NCBI GenBank assembly: GCA_028284905.1
Contig: JANQQU010000034.1
Location: 62,001 to 126,000, forward strand
DNA: 64,000 nucleotides
Source of the DNA: Calditrichia bacterium
GTDB taxonomy: Bacteria > Calditrichota > Calditrichia > RBG-13-44-9 > J075
Reading direction: 5' to 3'
Below, piece after piece: positions 5,494 through 11,216 of this stretch; the first letter of the stretch is position 1; every line of letters begins with the position of its first letter. The notes below the pieces were generated by a model. That model was not told the origin of the DNA. It made no database searches and saw only the letters and a program-made list of their open reading frames with translations. The position numbers and the translations under genes are program-made.

Positions 5494-7647
5494 ATGAGAT
5501 CGATAACATTTGTATATTTTTTCCTGTTGTTCATCCTTTTTTCAGACACCGCAAGCATGGCACAATCTGGTTGGCAGTGGCAAAACCCAAAACCAACCGG
5601 TAGCCTGCTTTTTGCCGTCTCGTTCATCGACGCTAACACTGGATGGGCTGTTGGAGAAGCTGGGAACTTCCTACGCACTAATGATGGTGGATCTACCTGG
5701 GTTAGCCAGCATATTGAAATGATAGATCCGCTAGCTAATCTATACGCTATTTCGTTTTCTGATGCTAATACCGGCACTGTTGTTGGAAAGAATGGCACAA
5801 TTATGCGAACAGTGGATGGAGGCGTTTCCTGGAGTGACCAACATTTTGGTGGATATAGTAATTATAGCGACGTCTACTTTGCAGACGCAAACAATGGGAT
5901 AATTATTGCAGATTCTAAATTTTATCGCACCAGTGATGGGGGAGTAAATTGGACAAGCCAAAACAGCGGAACGACTGCCTGGTTAAATCGATTCTCCTTT
6001 ACGGATACAAGTTCCGGCACTGCCGTAGGAGATTCCGGCACGATCCTTCGCACCAATGACGAAGGAGATAACTGGGCAATCCAGAATAGCGGAACAATAA
6101 AAGTACTCAATGATGTCAATTTCATCGATACTAATACCGGTACAGTCGTTGGGGAATCCGGTACCATTCTACGAACTATCGACAGCGGGATTACCTGGCT
6201 TAGCCAAAACAGCGGAACGACTAAATCGCTAAATGGCGTTTACTTCAGGGATGCTAATACTGGCATCGTAGTGGGAGACAGCGGCATTATACTTCACACT
6301 ACTGACGGAGGAGTCAACTGGAACCACAGAGATAGTGGTACCACAGAAACTTTGAGGGACATTTCTTTTCATGACGCTAATCATGCGATTGCCGTTGGCG
6401 GTCCCTATTTCGATGGCACCCCAACATTGCTGCGTAGCGCCGACGGGGGCGTCACCTGGGTCAATCAAGTTGACCTGGCAACAGCTAACCACCTTTATGA
6501 CATTTTTTTTACCGATGAGAATACCGGGTTTACGGTGGGGAACTCTGGTACCATTTTGAGTACTACCGACGGAGGGAGTAACTGGATCGCCCAGAACAGC
6601 GGTACAATGGAATCATTACAGGGCTTATACTTTAGTGATGCTAATACAGGCACAGTAGTTGGGGCGAATGGAACGATACTGCAAACTGACGATAGTGCGG
6701 TCTCCTGGATTTCCCGCAATAGCGGAATAACAGAGACCCTAAGAAACATTTATTTTCACCACAACTACGGATGGGCTGTCGGTGATAGTGGTGTAATCTT
6801 ATCTACCATTGATGGCGGGGCTACCTGGAATAGTCAAGTCAGCGGAACAGAATCTGAACTTCAAGACGTCATTTTCAGGGATGAAAATACCGGTATTGTC
6901 GTTGGTCTTTCGGGCACCATATTGGGCACCACTGATGGGGGAAATACCTGGATCGACTCGTCAGACATTCAATATAATTTCGGAAAAATTTCTTTCATTG
7001 ATCAAAATCAGGGTTGGGCGGCAGGATATGAGCATATCTTGCATACAACCGATGGAGGGCTTACTTGGTACAAGCAAAAGGGAGAAGACTATCAGCGCTT
7101 CCTGGATGTGTCTTTTGTAGATGCCAATGTGGGATTTGTTGTAGGACGTGAGTGGCGATGGATCAGTAATTCTTGGGCGATTATATTGCATACCTATGAC
7201 GGTGGGAGTACCTGGGAATACCAGGATCTTTCAATAAAAAAGGTGCTTAATGCGGTCTTTTTTGTCAATGCCAACACTGGATGGGCAGTGGGGGATTTTG
7301 GTACTATTTTGCGCACTTCCAGTGGCGGGGTGGTATCGATTGAAGACCGCGATCTCCCCCTAACACCGAGGGAGTTTGATTTGGGCCAAAACTACCCCAA
7401 TCCCTTCAACCCGGAAACAAAGATCCCTTATTATCTACCCCATGCCACCGAGGCTACAATTGTTATCTACAATATCCTCGGGCAGCGAATCAACACCTTG
7501 TATACCGGACCACAAACCGCCGGAAAAAAACTAGCCGTTTGGGACGGCCGAGATCAGATAGGGAATGTGGTCAGTTCGGGGATTTACATTTATCAGCTTC
7601 AGACTGAGAAATTCGTTCAGAGTCGCAAAATGCTGTTGGTTCGCTGA
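5494..7647 (+). CDS. Ycf48-like beta-propeller surface protein with T9SS-type sorting domain
   Basis: 717 residues. An N-terminal signal peptide ending near SMAQS is followed by about thirteen repeats of the form F.D.NTG..VG..GTIL.T.DGG..W..Q.SGT, the pattern of Ycf48/HCF136 and BNR-like propellers. The last ~80 residues (NYPNPFNPETKIPY...SRKMLLVR) form a Por-type sorting domain. The ATG at 5494 is preferred over upstream in-frame starts because GGAGG sits at 5485-5489 and the signal peptide begins there. In this setting the repeats are likely an adhesive or binding surface scaffold rather than a photosystem factor, which is the namesake role of the family. Confidence 0.9.
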   Translation: MRSITFVYFFLLFILFSDTASMAQSGWQWQNPKPTGSLLFAVSFIDANTGWAVGEAGNFLRTNDGGSTWVSQHIEMIDPLANLYAISFSDANTGTVVGKNGTIMRTVDGGVSWSDQHFGGYSNYSDVYFADANNGIIIADSKFYRTSDGGVNWTSQNSGTTAWLNRFSFTDTSSGTAVGDSGTILRTNDEGDNWAIQNSGTIKVLNDVNFIDTNTGTVVGESGTILRTIDSGITWLSQNSGTTKSLNGVYFRDANTGIVVGDSGIILHTTDGGVNWNHRDSGTTETLRDISFHDANHAIAVGGPYFDGTPTLLRSADGGVTWVNQVDLATANHLYDIFFTDENTGFTVGNSGTILSTTDGGSNWIAQNSGTMESLQGLYFSDANTGTVVGANGTILQTDDSAVSWISRNSGITETLRNIYFHHNYGWAVGDSGVILSTIDGGATWNSQVSGTESELQDVIFRDENTGIVVGLSGTILGTTDGGNTWIDSSDIQYNFGKISFIDQNQGWAAGYEHILHTTDGGLTWYKQKGEDYQRFLDVSFVDANVGFVVGREWRWISNSWAIILHTYDGGSTWEYQDLSIKKVLNAVFFVNANTGWAVGDFGTILRTSSGGVVSIEDRDLPLTPREFDLGQNYPNPFNPETKIPYYLPHATEATIVIYNILGQRINTLYTGPQTAGKKLAVWDGRDQIGNVVSSGIYIYQLQTEKFVQSRKMLLVR

Positions 7648-7853: not shown

Positions 7854-7882
7854 TTGCGCTTCGCCGCCAAACGATGTATACT
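7854..7882 (+). promoter_or_regulatory. Sigma70-like promoter of the thrS leader
   Basis: A -35 like TTGCGC (7854-7859) and a -10 like TATACT (7877-7882) are separated by 17 bases. This would start transcription near 7889, about 40 bases before the threonine-rich leader peptide. Confidence 0.6.
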
Positions 7883-7930
7883 GTGCATTGTAAAAATAGT
7901 CATACATGAACAATTTCTTCAGCACAATAC

Positions 7931-8008
7931 ATGTTAGCAAAAAAAATGATACTGAATACGACAACCACCAGCACCACGACGACGACCGTTACCACTTTAA
8001 GTGGTTGA
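7931..8008 (+). CDS. thrL: Threonine-rich leader peptide of the thrS attenuator
   Basis: 25 codons from ATG at 7931 (or 20 from the in-frame ATG at 7946), of which 11 are Thr codons at 7958-7996, including runs of four and five (one Ser between them). The stop TGA is at 8006-8008. The run of Thr codons just upstream of threonyl-tRNA synthetase, followed by an antiterminator and a terminator, matches the design of amino-acid attenuator peptides such as thrL of enterobacteria. A ribosome stalled for lack of charged tRNA-Thr would leave 8006-8013 free. Weak point: no Shine-Dalgarno sequence is visible before either ATG. The peptide itself need have no function. Confidence 0.82.
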   Translation: MLAKKMILNTTTTSTTTTTVTTLSG

Positions 8009-8075
8009 GGCTGATGGTATTGATATAAGTTTTACTCAAAAACCGGCCTCAAAAAATGTGGCCGGTTTTTTTTTT
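7991..8075 (+). promoter_or_regulatory. Transcription attenuator (pause hairpin, antiterminator, terminator)
   Basis: Three alternative structures are visible. A hairpin ACCACTT/AAGTGGT (7991-8005) overlaps the last Thr codons. TGAGGCTG (8006-8013), which starts at the leader stop codon, can pair with CGGCCTCA (8044-8051) using one G-U pair. This would block the terminator stem AACCGGCC/GGCCGGTT (8041-8048 with 8060-8067). Low Thr-tRNA should therefore favour read-through into thrS, and normal leader translation should favour termination. Confidence 0.8.
8037..8075 (+). terminator. Rho-independent terminator of the thr leader
   Basis: An eight-pair GC-rich stem (8041-8048 with 8060-8067), flanked by A and T runs, is followed by ten T residues (8066-8075). 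This is a canonical intrinsic terminator lying 200 bases before thrS. Confidence 0.9.
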
Positions 8076-8107
8076 GGAAATATTAGTAGAGGTACCTCTA
8101 AAAATTA

Positions 8108-8216
8108 GCTACGGATCAACACCGATTTACACTGATTTAAAAAGACTTTTGATCGTTTTTCAGTGAATCCTTTTTCAGATCTGTGTGGATCCGTGCAAAT
8201 CAGTGGCTTTAATAAA
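8108..8216. repeat. Inverted-repeat element of the ATCAGTGGC family
   Basis: TAGCTACGGATCAACACCG...ACTGATTT on the left and GTGTGGATCCGTGC...AAATCAGTGGCT on the right form imperfect inverted arms around a short centre. The same family recurs, split by another repeat, at 36519-36782. It lies between the attenuator terminator and thrS and carries no gene. Confidence 0.6.
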
Positions 8217-8280
8217 AAAGATTCTGTTACTGAAGCTAAAAATTTAAGAGATTTCGCAGACAACTTTGGAGGCAATAAAA

Positions 8281-10116
8281 ATGCAAACCTTACCGGAAAA
8301 TGACAAAAACAGTAAGCTTTACAAACAACGGCATTCACTCTCACATATTCTTGCGCAGGCTGTGCAGCAGATTCGCCCTGGCGCCAAGCTTGGCTTTGGC
8401 CCCCCGGTCGATAACGGATTCTACTACGATTTCATTCTGCCGGAGCCAATTACCGAAGAAGACTTTCCCGATCTGGAAGCGCGCATGCGGAAAATTATTG
8501 CCGATAAGCAAGTATTCGAACGAGAAGACCTTTCGGTTGCCGATGCCATCTCTCGTCTGGAATCCATGGAAGAACCGCACAAAATTGAGTATGCGAAAGA
8601 GCTGGTGGAAAAACAGAATCTCGACTCACTCAGCTTCTACACCAACGGCCCGTTCGTTGATATGTGCGAAGGTCCGCACGTAGAGAATAGCCGGCATATT
8701 CCCGCTGATAGCTTCAAGCTGAGCAGTATCGCCGGTGCCTACTGGCGCGGCGATGAAAAGAATGTGATGATGACTCGCATCTACGCCTTCGCTTTCGAGA
8801 ACAAGAAAGAACTGAAGCAATATATCGCCAAGCGGGAACTGGCCTTAAAGCGCGACCACCGCAAACTCGGCGCCCAGTTGGAAATTTACGTCATTGATGA
8901 TGAAATCGGGAAAGGCTTACCCTTGTGGCTCCCGAATGGCAGCGTGATTCGCAGCGAGCTGGAAAAACTGGCCTATGAGTTGGAGTTCAAGGCCGGTTAT
9001 CATCAGGTCGCTACACCGCATATCACCAAGGAAGGGCTCTACAAAACTTCCGGGCACCTCCCCTATTACAAAGAATCGATGTATCCTCCGATGCAATTGC
9101 ATGAGGATGGCGGCGAAGTACAGGCAGTGCCGATTGCCGGCGAAGGGGAAGAGTCCTATTACCTGAAGCCGATGAATTGCCCGCATCACCATAAGATTTA
9201 TGCTGCAAAGAAGCGTTCTTACCGCGATCTACCTATTCGTCTGGCTGAATATGGCACTGTTTATCGTTACGAAAAATCCGGCCAGCTGCAGGGGCTTACC
9301 CGGGTGCGCGGCATGACTATGAATGACGCCCATATCTATTGCACCAAAGAGCAGGTGAAGGATGAATTTAAAGCGGTGATGGACTTGCACCGCCAGCTCT
9401 ATGAACTGTTTGACTTTTCCGATTATTACATGCGCCTCAGCGTCCGGGGGGACGAAGATGCCCGCGGGAAATACGTCGACGATCCGGAAGCATGGGATTA
9501 CACCGAGCGCGTCGTGCAGGAAGCGATGGATGAGATGGAGCTACCTTACGTCACCGTCAAAGGGGAAGCGGCTTTCTACGGACCGAAAATCGATATCCAA
9601 TTCCGCACTGTGATCGACCGGGAATTTACTGTTTCTACCAATCAGTTGGACTTTGCAGTACCGCCGCGTTTCGACCTCAGCTATACCGGCAGCGATGGGG
9701 CGGAATATACCCCGTATGTAATTCACCGTGCGCCGTTAGGCACGCATGAACGTTTTATCGCATTTCTCATCGAGCATTACGGCGGCGCCTTCCCGACCTG
9801 GTTGGCACCTGTGCAAGTGCGCATCCTGCCGGTTGGTGAAGCCTTTATGGATTACGCCAGGAAACTCAATGCAGAACTCCGGGGCAATCTCATTCGCGCC
9901 GAAGTAGATGACTCCAATGAAACGCTCGGGAAGAAGATCCGCACGAACACCACTCAGAAAGTGCCGATTATTCTCGTGGTTGGTCAGAAAGAGCAATCCG
10001 AAGCATCCGTCACTGTCAGACGCTACGGCATAAAGCAGCAGGAAACTTTAAAGTTCTCTGAATTTAAAGACACTGTGATAGACGAGATTCGCACCAGAAG
10101 GCATGTGAAAGCATAA
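8281..10116 (+). CDS. thrS: Threonyl-tRNA synthetase lacking the TGS domain
   Basis: 611 residues. It charges tRNA-Thr with threonine in the cytoplasm. The N2 editing domain begins almost at once, with HSLSH (H18, H22) and CEGPH (C129, H133). The class II core follows: C300 in MNCPHHH (zinc/substrate ligand), motif 2 RYEKSG...RVRG near 328, motif 3 HRAPLGTHERF near 482, then the anticodon-binding domain. Usual bacterial ThrRS is about 640 residues with an N-terminal TGS domain that is absent here. ATG at 8281 is chosen because GGAGG sits at 8268-8272; a TTG at 8266 would overlap that site and add only five residues. It is the first gene of an operon with sua5 and is controlled by the upstream threonine attenuator. 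Confidence 0.96.
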   Translation: MQTLPENDKNSKLYKQRHSLSHILAQAVQQIRPGAKLGFGPPVDNGFYYDFILPEPITEEDFPDLEARMRKIIADKQVFEREDLSVADAISRLESMEEPHKIEYAKELVEKQNLDSLSFYTNGPFVDMCEGPHVENSRHIPADSFKLSSIAGAYWRGDEKNVMMTRIYAFAFENKKELKQYIAKRELALKRDHRKLGAQLEIYVIDDEIGKGLPLWLPNGSVIRSELEKLAYELEFKAGYHQVATPHITKEGLYKTSGHLPYYKESMYPPMQLHEDGGEVQAVPIAGEGEESYYLKPMNCPHHHKIYAAKKRSYRDLPIRLAEYGTVYRYEKSGQLQGLTRVRGMTMNDAHIYCTKEQVKDEFKAVMDLHRQLYELFDFSDYYMRLSVRGDEDARGKYVDDPEAWDYTERVVQEAMDEMELPYVTVKGEAAFYGPKIDIQFRTVIDREFTVSTNQLDFAVPPRFDLSYTGSDGAEYTPYVIHRAPLGTHERFIAFLIEHYGGAFPTWLAPVQVRILPVGEAFMDYARKLNAELRGNLIRAEVDDSNETLGKKIRTNTTQKVPIILVVGQKEQSEASVTVRRYGIKQQETLKFSEFKDTVIDEIRTRRHVKA

Positions 10117-10130
10117 GGCTTGACAATGCC

Positions 10131-11216
10131 ATGCAAACTCGTGTATTAACTGTTGGCAACGCGCCCGAGACCGATAAAAATATTATAGAAGCGGCAAACT
10201 ATCTCCGTGCCGGAAAGCTGGTTGCTTTTCCGACGGAGACAGTTTACGGTCTCGGGGCGGATGCCACAAACGCCACAGCCGTAGAGGCGATCTTCAAAGC
10301 AAAACGGCGACCGGCGGACAATCCCCTCATTGCGCACGTCGCCGATACAGCACAGCTCCTGGAAATTTGTCACTACCCGGAACCAAGGGCAGCAGCGCTA
10401 ATTAAAGCATTCTGGCCCGGTCCGCTTACTTTGGTTTTACCCGCTACCGACCTTGCAAAAAAAGCGCTTACCAGAGGGTTGGATACCGTAGCAGTTCGCA
10501 TGCCCGCCCATCCGATTGCACTCGCTCTTATCCGCCAGACCGGACGTCCGATTGCCGCGCCCAGCGCGAATCTTTCCGGAAAACCGAGCCCAACATCCGC
10601 CCAGCATGTCCTTGAAGATTTTGCTGGATACATTCCCCTCATTCTCGATGGCGGTCTCTGCGAAGTTGGTATCGAGTCGACAGTGTTGGATCTTTCTCAG
10701 GAAACGCCACTCATCTTAAGGCCCGGACAAATTACCGAAGCGGATATTGCTGCAGTTATTGATATTCCCACCCAACAGCAAAGCAACAGTGAGGAGGCGA
10801 AGAAACGCTCGCCGGGTACCCGTTATCGCCATTATAGCCCGAGAGCGGCAGTCTTTGTCATTGGCCCGCAGGTTAGCCATCAATCTGCCAGTGATTTGGT
10901 TGCCGGCCTGGTAGCATCCCGTTCTAACAGTATTCGGATCGGATATATCGGCTGGCGGGAAGCATTGTTAACACATCCTCAGATTTTCTTGAAAAAGGAA
11001 CTTTCCAGGAATGCAGCTGATGATTTAGCGTACCATCTTTATCGGGATTTACGGGCATTCGATGCGCAGTCGGTCGATGTTATTATTATCGATGGTGTTG
11101 CAGCTGCCGGCGTTGGTGTTTCCGTGATGGACAGGCTTCGACGGGCGGCGACGTATGTCTTTGAGGATGATTCGGCGCTTCAGCTGTTTTTGATTTCTCT
11201 GCAACCCCGGAGGTGA
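10131..11216 (+). CDS. sua5: L-threonylcarbamoyladenylate synthase (Sua5 type)
   Basis: 361 residues. It converts threonine, bicarbonate and ATP to threonylcarbamoyl-AMP, the first step of t6A37 modification of ANN-decoding tRNAs. The YrdC-type domain occupies about 1-215, with FPTETVYGLGADA, KAKRRPADNPL (the KxR substrate motif) and PSANLSGKPSPT. The linker carries SPGTRYRHYSP, and a C-terminal Sua5 domain (about 240-361) distinguishes it from short TsaC. It starts 14 bases after thrS, so the two are almost certainly co-transcribed. Both enzymes consume threonine for tRNA function, which makes shared control by the thr attenuator sensible. Confidence 0.95.
   Translation: MQTRVLTVGNAPETDKNIIEAANYLRAGKLVAFPTETVYGLGADATNATAVEAIFKAKRRPADNPLIAHVADTAQLLEICHYPEPRAAALIKAFWPGPLTLVLPATDLAKKALTRGLDTVAVRMPAHPIALALIRQTGRPIAAPSANLSGKPSPTSAQHVLEDFAGYIPLILDGGLCEVGIESTVLDLSQETPLILRPGQITEADIAAVIDIPTQQQSNSEEAKKRSPGTRYRHYSPRAAVFVIGPQVSHQSASDLVAGLVASRSNSIRIGYIGWREALLTHPQIFLKKELSRNAADDLAYHLYRDLRAFDAQSVDVIIIDGVAAAGVGVSVMDRLRRAATYVFEDDSALQLFLISLQPRR

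Follow-up and report, generated by a model that had tools for sequence, protein, structure and literature searches.

Threonyl-tRNA synthetase genes (thrS) are commonly regulated by T-boxes or by translational autocontrol. The thrS gene in the 64,000-nucleotide stretch of Calditrichia bacterium DNA analyzed here (the window) is preceded by a short threonine-rich reading frame and a terminator hairpin, an arrangement that raises the question of whether the gene is controlled by the translation of a leader peptide. An initial annotation, made from the sequence alone, had read this region as a complete ribosome-mediated threonine attenuator and had called such a switch unusual for this gene. Here, we address whether the elements of an attenuator are present, whether they are predicted to switch at the appropriate codons, how the arrangement is distributed among relatives, and which other explanations could account for it.

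Putative regulatory elements upstream of thrS

The features of the locus and their coordinates are summarized in Table 1.

Table 1. Features of the thrS-sua5 locus, with positions in the window.
Feature	Position	Strand	Basis or remark
Candidate sigma-70-like promoter: TTGCGC (7854-7859), 17 nt spacer, TATACT (7877-7882)	7854-7882	+	By eye
Leader ORF, 25 codons (11 Thr) and TGA	7931-8008	+	Read from sequence; composition test
Alternative leader start, ATG 7946, 3' of an A-run	within 7931-8008	+	
Control codons ACG ACA ACC ACC AGC ACC ACG ACG ACG ACC GTT ACC ACT	7958-7996	+	
Predicted 1:2 protector helix: 7964-7967/8015-8018, 7969-7972/8010-8013 and 7975-7976/8006-8007	7964-8018	+	Fold of whole leader
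Predicted hairpin enclosed by the 1:2 helix	7991-7996/8000-8005	+	Fold of whole leader
Predicted 2:3 antiterminator	8005-8052	+	Folding; 5' arm includes leader stop codon
3:4 intrinsic terminator, T-run 8066-8075	8038-8075	+	Sequence and folding
Dispersed-repeat copy, imperfect palindrome, -32 kcal/mol, without T-run	8101-8218	+	Between terminator and thrS
thrS, threonine--tRNA ligase, TGS-less type; Shine-Dalgarno GGAGG 8270-8274, ATG 8281	8281-10116	+	Profile matches
sua5, L-threonylcarbamoyladenylate synthase (threonylcarbamoyl-AMP synthase)	10131-11216	+	TIGR00057 and Sua5_C

The leader frame encodes the peptide MLAKKMILNTTTTSTTTTTVTTLSG. Given the window's own threonine frequency (6%), the probability of finding at least 11 Thr in 24 codons is 4e-8. 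The leader is the sole case of at least eight Thr per 14 codons in all six frames of the window, and no such run occurred in 30 dinucleotide-shuffled windows. Throughout the genome (8.55 Mb) the pattern ACNACNACNNNNACNACNACN is found four times, the leader included; two of the three other sites were inspected, one of which lies inside a Tyr-rich coding frame and the other in a frame that lacks leader anatomy. On the basis of the composition test, the uniqueness of the run in the window and the genome-wide pattern count, we rejected a chance run of Thr codons. The locus thus contains a short ORF with a run of cognate codons, as is characteristic of ribosome-mediated attenuators, and the leader with its 11 Thr codons stands as it was originally described. 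The residue that is enriched in the leader matches the product encoded downstream, a threonine--tRNA ligase.

A promoter had also been assigned upstream of the leader. The two hexamers are indeed visible by eye, but the match is weak, with 8 of the 12 consensus bases, and a consensus promoter scan detected no promoter at this site. No Shine-Dalgarno sequence precedes ATG 7931, which had been recognized from the start, and the same holds for ATG 7946, where the upstream region is A-rich. In this respect the leader differs from thrS and from the majority of the long ORFs in the window, which have a Shine-Dalgarno sequence. Several of the His leaders that precede hisG in the same class also lack one, however, which weakens the objection.

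The terminator stem (8038-8051 paired with 8057-8070) has a calculated stability of -18.4 kcal/mol, which none of 200 shuffled sequences equaled. Together with the ten Ts, it constitutes an intrinsic terminator between the leader ORF and the first gene, in agreement with the GC-rich hairpin proposed in the initial annotation. In the antiterminator, 8005-8012 pair with 8045-8052, and the helix is extended by pairing of 8016-8018 with 8042-8044. The antiterminator uses bases that also take part in the 1:2 helix or in the terminator, and these pairings are mutually exclusive. Mutual exclusivity had been proposed before on the basis of a slightly different register (8006-8013 with 8044-8051), and the two registers are equivalent. 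Folding of the entire leader predicts two elements that had not been listed previously, a protector or pause helix 1:2 (7964-7976 with 8006-8018) and the hairpin that it encloses (7991-8005).

The dispersed repeat located between the terminator and thrS is probably not part of the switch. Matches to the repeat, whole or in part and with 69-90% identity, are found at 15 other places in the genome.

The product of thrS, which is the only thrS gene of the genome, matches TIGR00418 at 652.8 bits (cut-off 383.65). The Pfam domains are limited to tRNA_SAD, the class II core and the anticodon-binding domain, and the N-terminal TGS domain is absent.

Predicted switching behavior

We modeled the ribosome on the leader as masking all RNA as far as 13 nt 3' of the first A-site base, and exposed the transcript only to 8052. 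For all A-site positions within the Thr run (first Thr codon at 7958, last at 7994), the model gives a probability of ~0.96 that the terminator 5' arm is sequestered. After the last Thr codon the probability decreases to 0.64, 0.48, 0.33 and 0.16 at TTA, AGT, GGT and TGA, respectively. In the same model, sequestration in Escherichia coli thrL is 1.0 along the Thr codons, 0.61 at the last of them and 0.01 at the stop codon. The switching point of the thrS leader is located just 3' of the last Thr codon, and the shape of the profile matches that of E. coli thrL. When the terminator was kept fixed and the rest of the sequence was shuffled, the observed switch was reached in none of 1000 cases. 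In the model, therefore, the 5' arm of the antiterminator is masked when the ribosome occupies the leader stop codon, and free when it is stalled at the control codons.

Equilibrium folding gave a different picture, in that the terminator prevails wherever the ribosome is placed (P at least 0.996). The terminator also wins everywhere in E. coli thrL at equilibrium, and hence this result does not discriminate. Because the terminator is favored at equilibrium throughout, the switch must be kinetic, in the thrS leader and in E. coli thrL alike.

Provided that the region is transcribed and the leader translated, and that translation is coupled to transcription, the response in vivo would be as follows. 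When Thr-tRNA is plentiful, the ribosome would reach the leader stop codon and cover the 5' arm of the antiterminator, which would allow the terminator to form and end transcription before thrS. A shortage of Thr-tRNA would instead stall the ribosome in the Thr run and leave region 2 free. The 2:3 antiterminator could then form while the 3' arm of the terminator is still to be transcribed, leading to read-through. Without translation, the 1:2 helix would be expected to compete with the antiterminator.

Leader peptides and thrS genes in related bacteria

Attenuation by leader peptides appears to be a normal mode of regulation in this lineage, because hisG is preceded by a short His-rich frame and a terminator at 18 of the 26 loci from the same class (L129-L154), among them that of a member of the same family (G001). 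In the genome studied here, two tandem His leaders, each with a terminator, lie upstream of a tRNA-His(GTG) gene, which is in turn followed by hisG (L002:1341-1760; contig C25, ~14.3-14.8 kb). The hisG His-leader regulon of the class merits description in its own right.

Among the other thrS upstream regions scanned, roughly 190 in number, the combination of Thr leader and terminator did not occur. The scan comprised 29 relatives, 80 database thrS loci and a wider sample from a search of 385 genomes, and the estimate of 190 takes into account that some loci overlapped, that some contigs were short and that the orientation of eight loci was uncertain. A Thr-rich frame with a terminator before thrS in another genome (G128, L259) proved to be false, as it lies within a genuine Gly-rich gene that is read in another frame. 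Within the comparison, which extended to the level of the family but not of the genus, the nearest thrS is that of G003 (same family, 57% identical), and it is preceded by neither leader nor terminator. A Thr leader was also not found at the thrABC operon, either in the genome studied here or in G003.

A maximum-likelihood tree separates the thrS sequences of this genome and of G003 from those of other class members, and places the two in a well-supported clade together with sequences from Bdellovibrionota, a PVC bacterium and a Gracilibacterium. Because of this position in the tree and the absence of the attenuator from G003, we consider it probable that the thrS gene was displaced, and that the switch was subsequently gained in the lineage of the genome studied here. 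Alternatively, the switch may have been lost in G003. As this thrS lineage is patchily distributed, the case may illustrate how an essential gene, once displaced, comes under a new regulatory switch.

Two further observations concern these genes. The clade of TGS-less thrS genes is spread patchily (Bdellovibrionota, PVC, Gracilibacteria) and differs from the thrS that is usual in the class. A palindromic element, CCCCCTTT...AAAGGGGG, precedes both thrS (L005:1311-1360) and hisG (L153:1258-1297) in G003, at the positions where the genome studied here has attenuators.

Interpretation of the thrS leader

The complete anatomy, the thrL-like switching point, the negative outcome of the shuffles and the frequent occurrence of His leaders in the class support the threonine attenuator that was initially proposed. 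We consider it highly likely that the leader is a classical ribosome-mediated transcription attenuator, which responds to the supply of charged tRNA-Thr and governs the expression of thrS, and probably also that of sua5.

The sua5 gene starts 14 nt after thrS and is presumed to be on the same transcript, an adjacency that was not seen in the other thrS loci examined. If so, charging of tRNA-Thr and its t6A modification would be linked under one sensor, and a low level of Thr-tRNA would lead to transcription of both genes, and to more charging and more t6A synthesis. ThrRS and Sua5 each also consume threonine.

As the operon also makes Sua5, the attenuator reading could be extended, in that the control codons might report the decoding quality of tRNA-Thr (the state of t6A37) besides its charging, and feed back on decoding capacity via ThrRS and Sua5. 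We regard this extension as speculative and rather doubtful. There is a precedent for a Thr leader that responds to tRNA modification: in the E. coli thr operon, tRNA-Thr without the N6-methylation of t6A relieves attenuation via the ACC codons of ThrL (PMC4132733). The close spacing of thrS and sua5 is consistent with the extension, as is the abundance in the leader of ANN codons (19 of 25), the class decoded by t6A-bearing tRNAs. However, the excess of ANN codons beyond those for Thr is weak (7 of 13, P = 0.02), the pairing of thrS with sua5 was seen at none of the other loci examined, and the genome contains a second gene with a Sua5/YrdC domain (212 aa). If the extension were correct, a single leader of Thr and ANN codons would drive the production, from one operon, of ThrRS, which charges the tRNA, and of Sua5, which makes threonylcarbamoyl-AMP.

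The terminator might instead belong to the upstream gene, with the Thr-rich frame being an accident of an AC-rich stretch. Such a coincidence would fit with the absence of the leader from the relatives scanned and with its lack of a Shine-Dalgarno sequence, and the terminator on its own is unremarkable, but the terminator is located 390 nt beyond the upstream stop codon (at 7647). The number of Thr codons, the codon-aligned switch that shuffling did not reproduce, and the match between the leader amino acid and the downstream gene also argue against it, and make this explanation very improbable. We find it slightly harder still to believe that a real terminator hairpin is controlled by something other than ribosome stalling, such as a tRNA sensor of the T-box kind or, as in E. 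coli, the binding of ThrRS to its own leader: these are the familiar modes for thrS, but the Rfam T-box model gave no match up to E = 5, the hairpins lie ~200 nt 5' of the thrS start and behind the dispersed repeat, away from the ribosome-binding site, and the Thr run would be left without explanation.

Comparison with known systems

The thrS leader matches the Rfam family Thr_leader (RF00506) with 29.3 bits (E 0.0025 in an 800-base search), which is below the gathering threshold of 55 bits, and no other Rfam leader reached its cut-off in the region upstream of thrS. Matches to STnc370 and similar families were below cut-off, mainly overlapped the terminator, and were discarded. Weak matches to Thr_leader elsewhere in the genome correspond to ordinary terminators (L001 and L003) and to the pair of His leaders (L002).

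In the open literature searched, a leader-peptide attenuator of thrS is undescribed, and the main texts of two studies that report such leaders for other synthetase genes (PMC1262725; PMC2965389) do not mention thrS. An earlier prediction may be contained in the most pertinent survey, which lies outside that literature (Lopatovskaya et al., 2010; doi 10.1134/S0026893310010164).

Two other forms of thrS regulation differ from the one proposed here. The T-box leaders of Firmicutes also regulate thrS, but the leader described here does not contain a T-box. E. coli ThrRS, which is cited as self-regulating (PMC2965389), exerts translational autocontrol, whereas the element described here is not located at the thrS ribosome-binding site.

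Leader-peptide attenuation is known or predicted for the synthetase genes pheST, leuS and trpS (PMC1262725), and for hisS/hisZ (PMC2965389). E. coli pheM-pheST resembles the thrS leader in that an aminoacyl-tRNA synthetase gene is attenuated by a leader peptide, but it differs in amino acid (phenylalanine), organism and leader sequence. Likewise, the attenuators of leuS and trpS in Streptomyces and the His leaders of the hisS/hisZ paralogues in bacilli are predicted cognate leaders before synthetase genes, although for other amino acids.

The closest parallel in mechanism is E. coli thrL of the thrLABC operon (RF00506). Both leaders encode a Thr-rich peptide whose stop codon lies at the 5' arm of the antiterminator, and both show the same predicted switching profile and the same equilibrium behavior. 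Unlike thrL, the leader described here precedes thrS (and sua5) rather than thrABC, and it scores below the Rfam cut-off. Threonyl-tRNA synthetase would thus be placed under classical leader-peptide attenuation, in a class where His leaders before hisG are seemingly widespread; the mechanism is old, and the target, thrS and perhaps t6A synthesis with it, is new.
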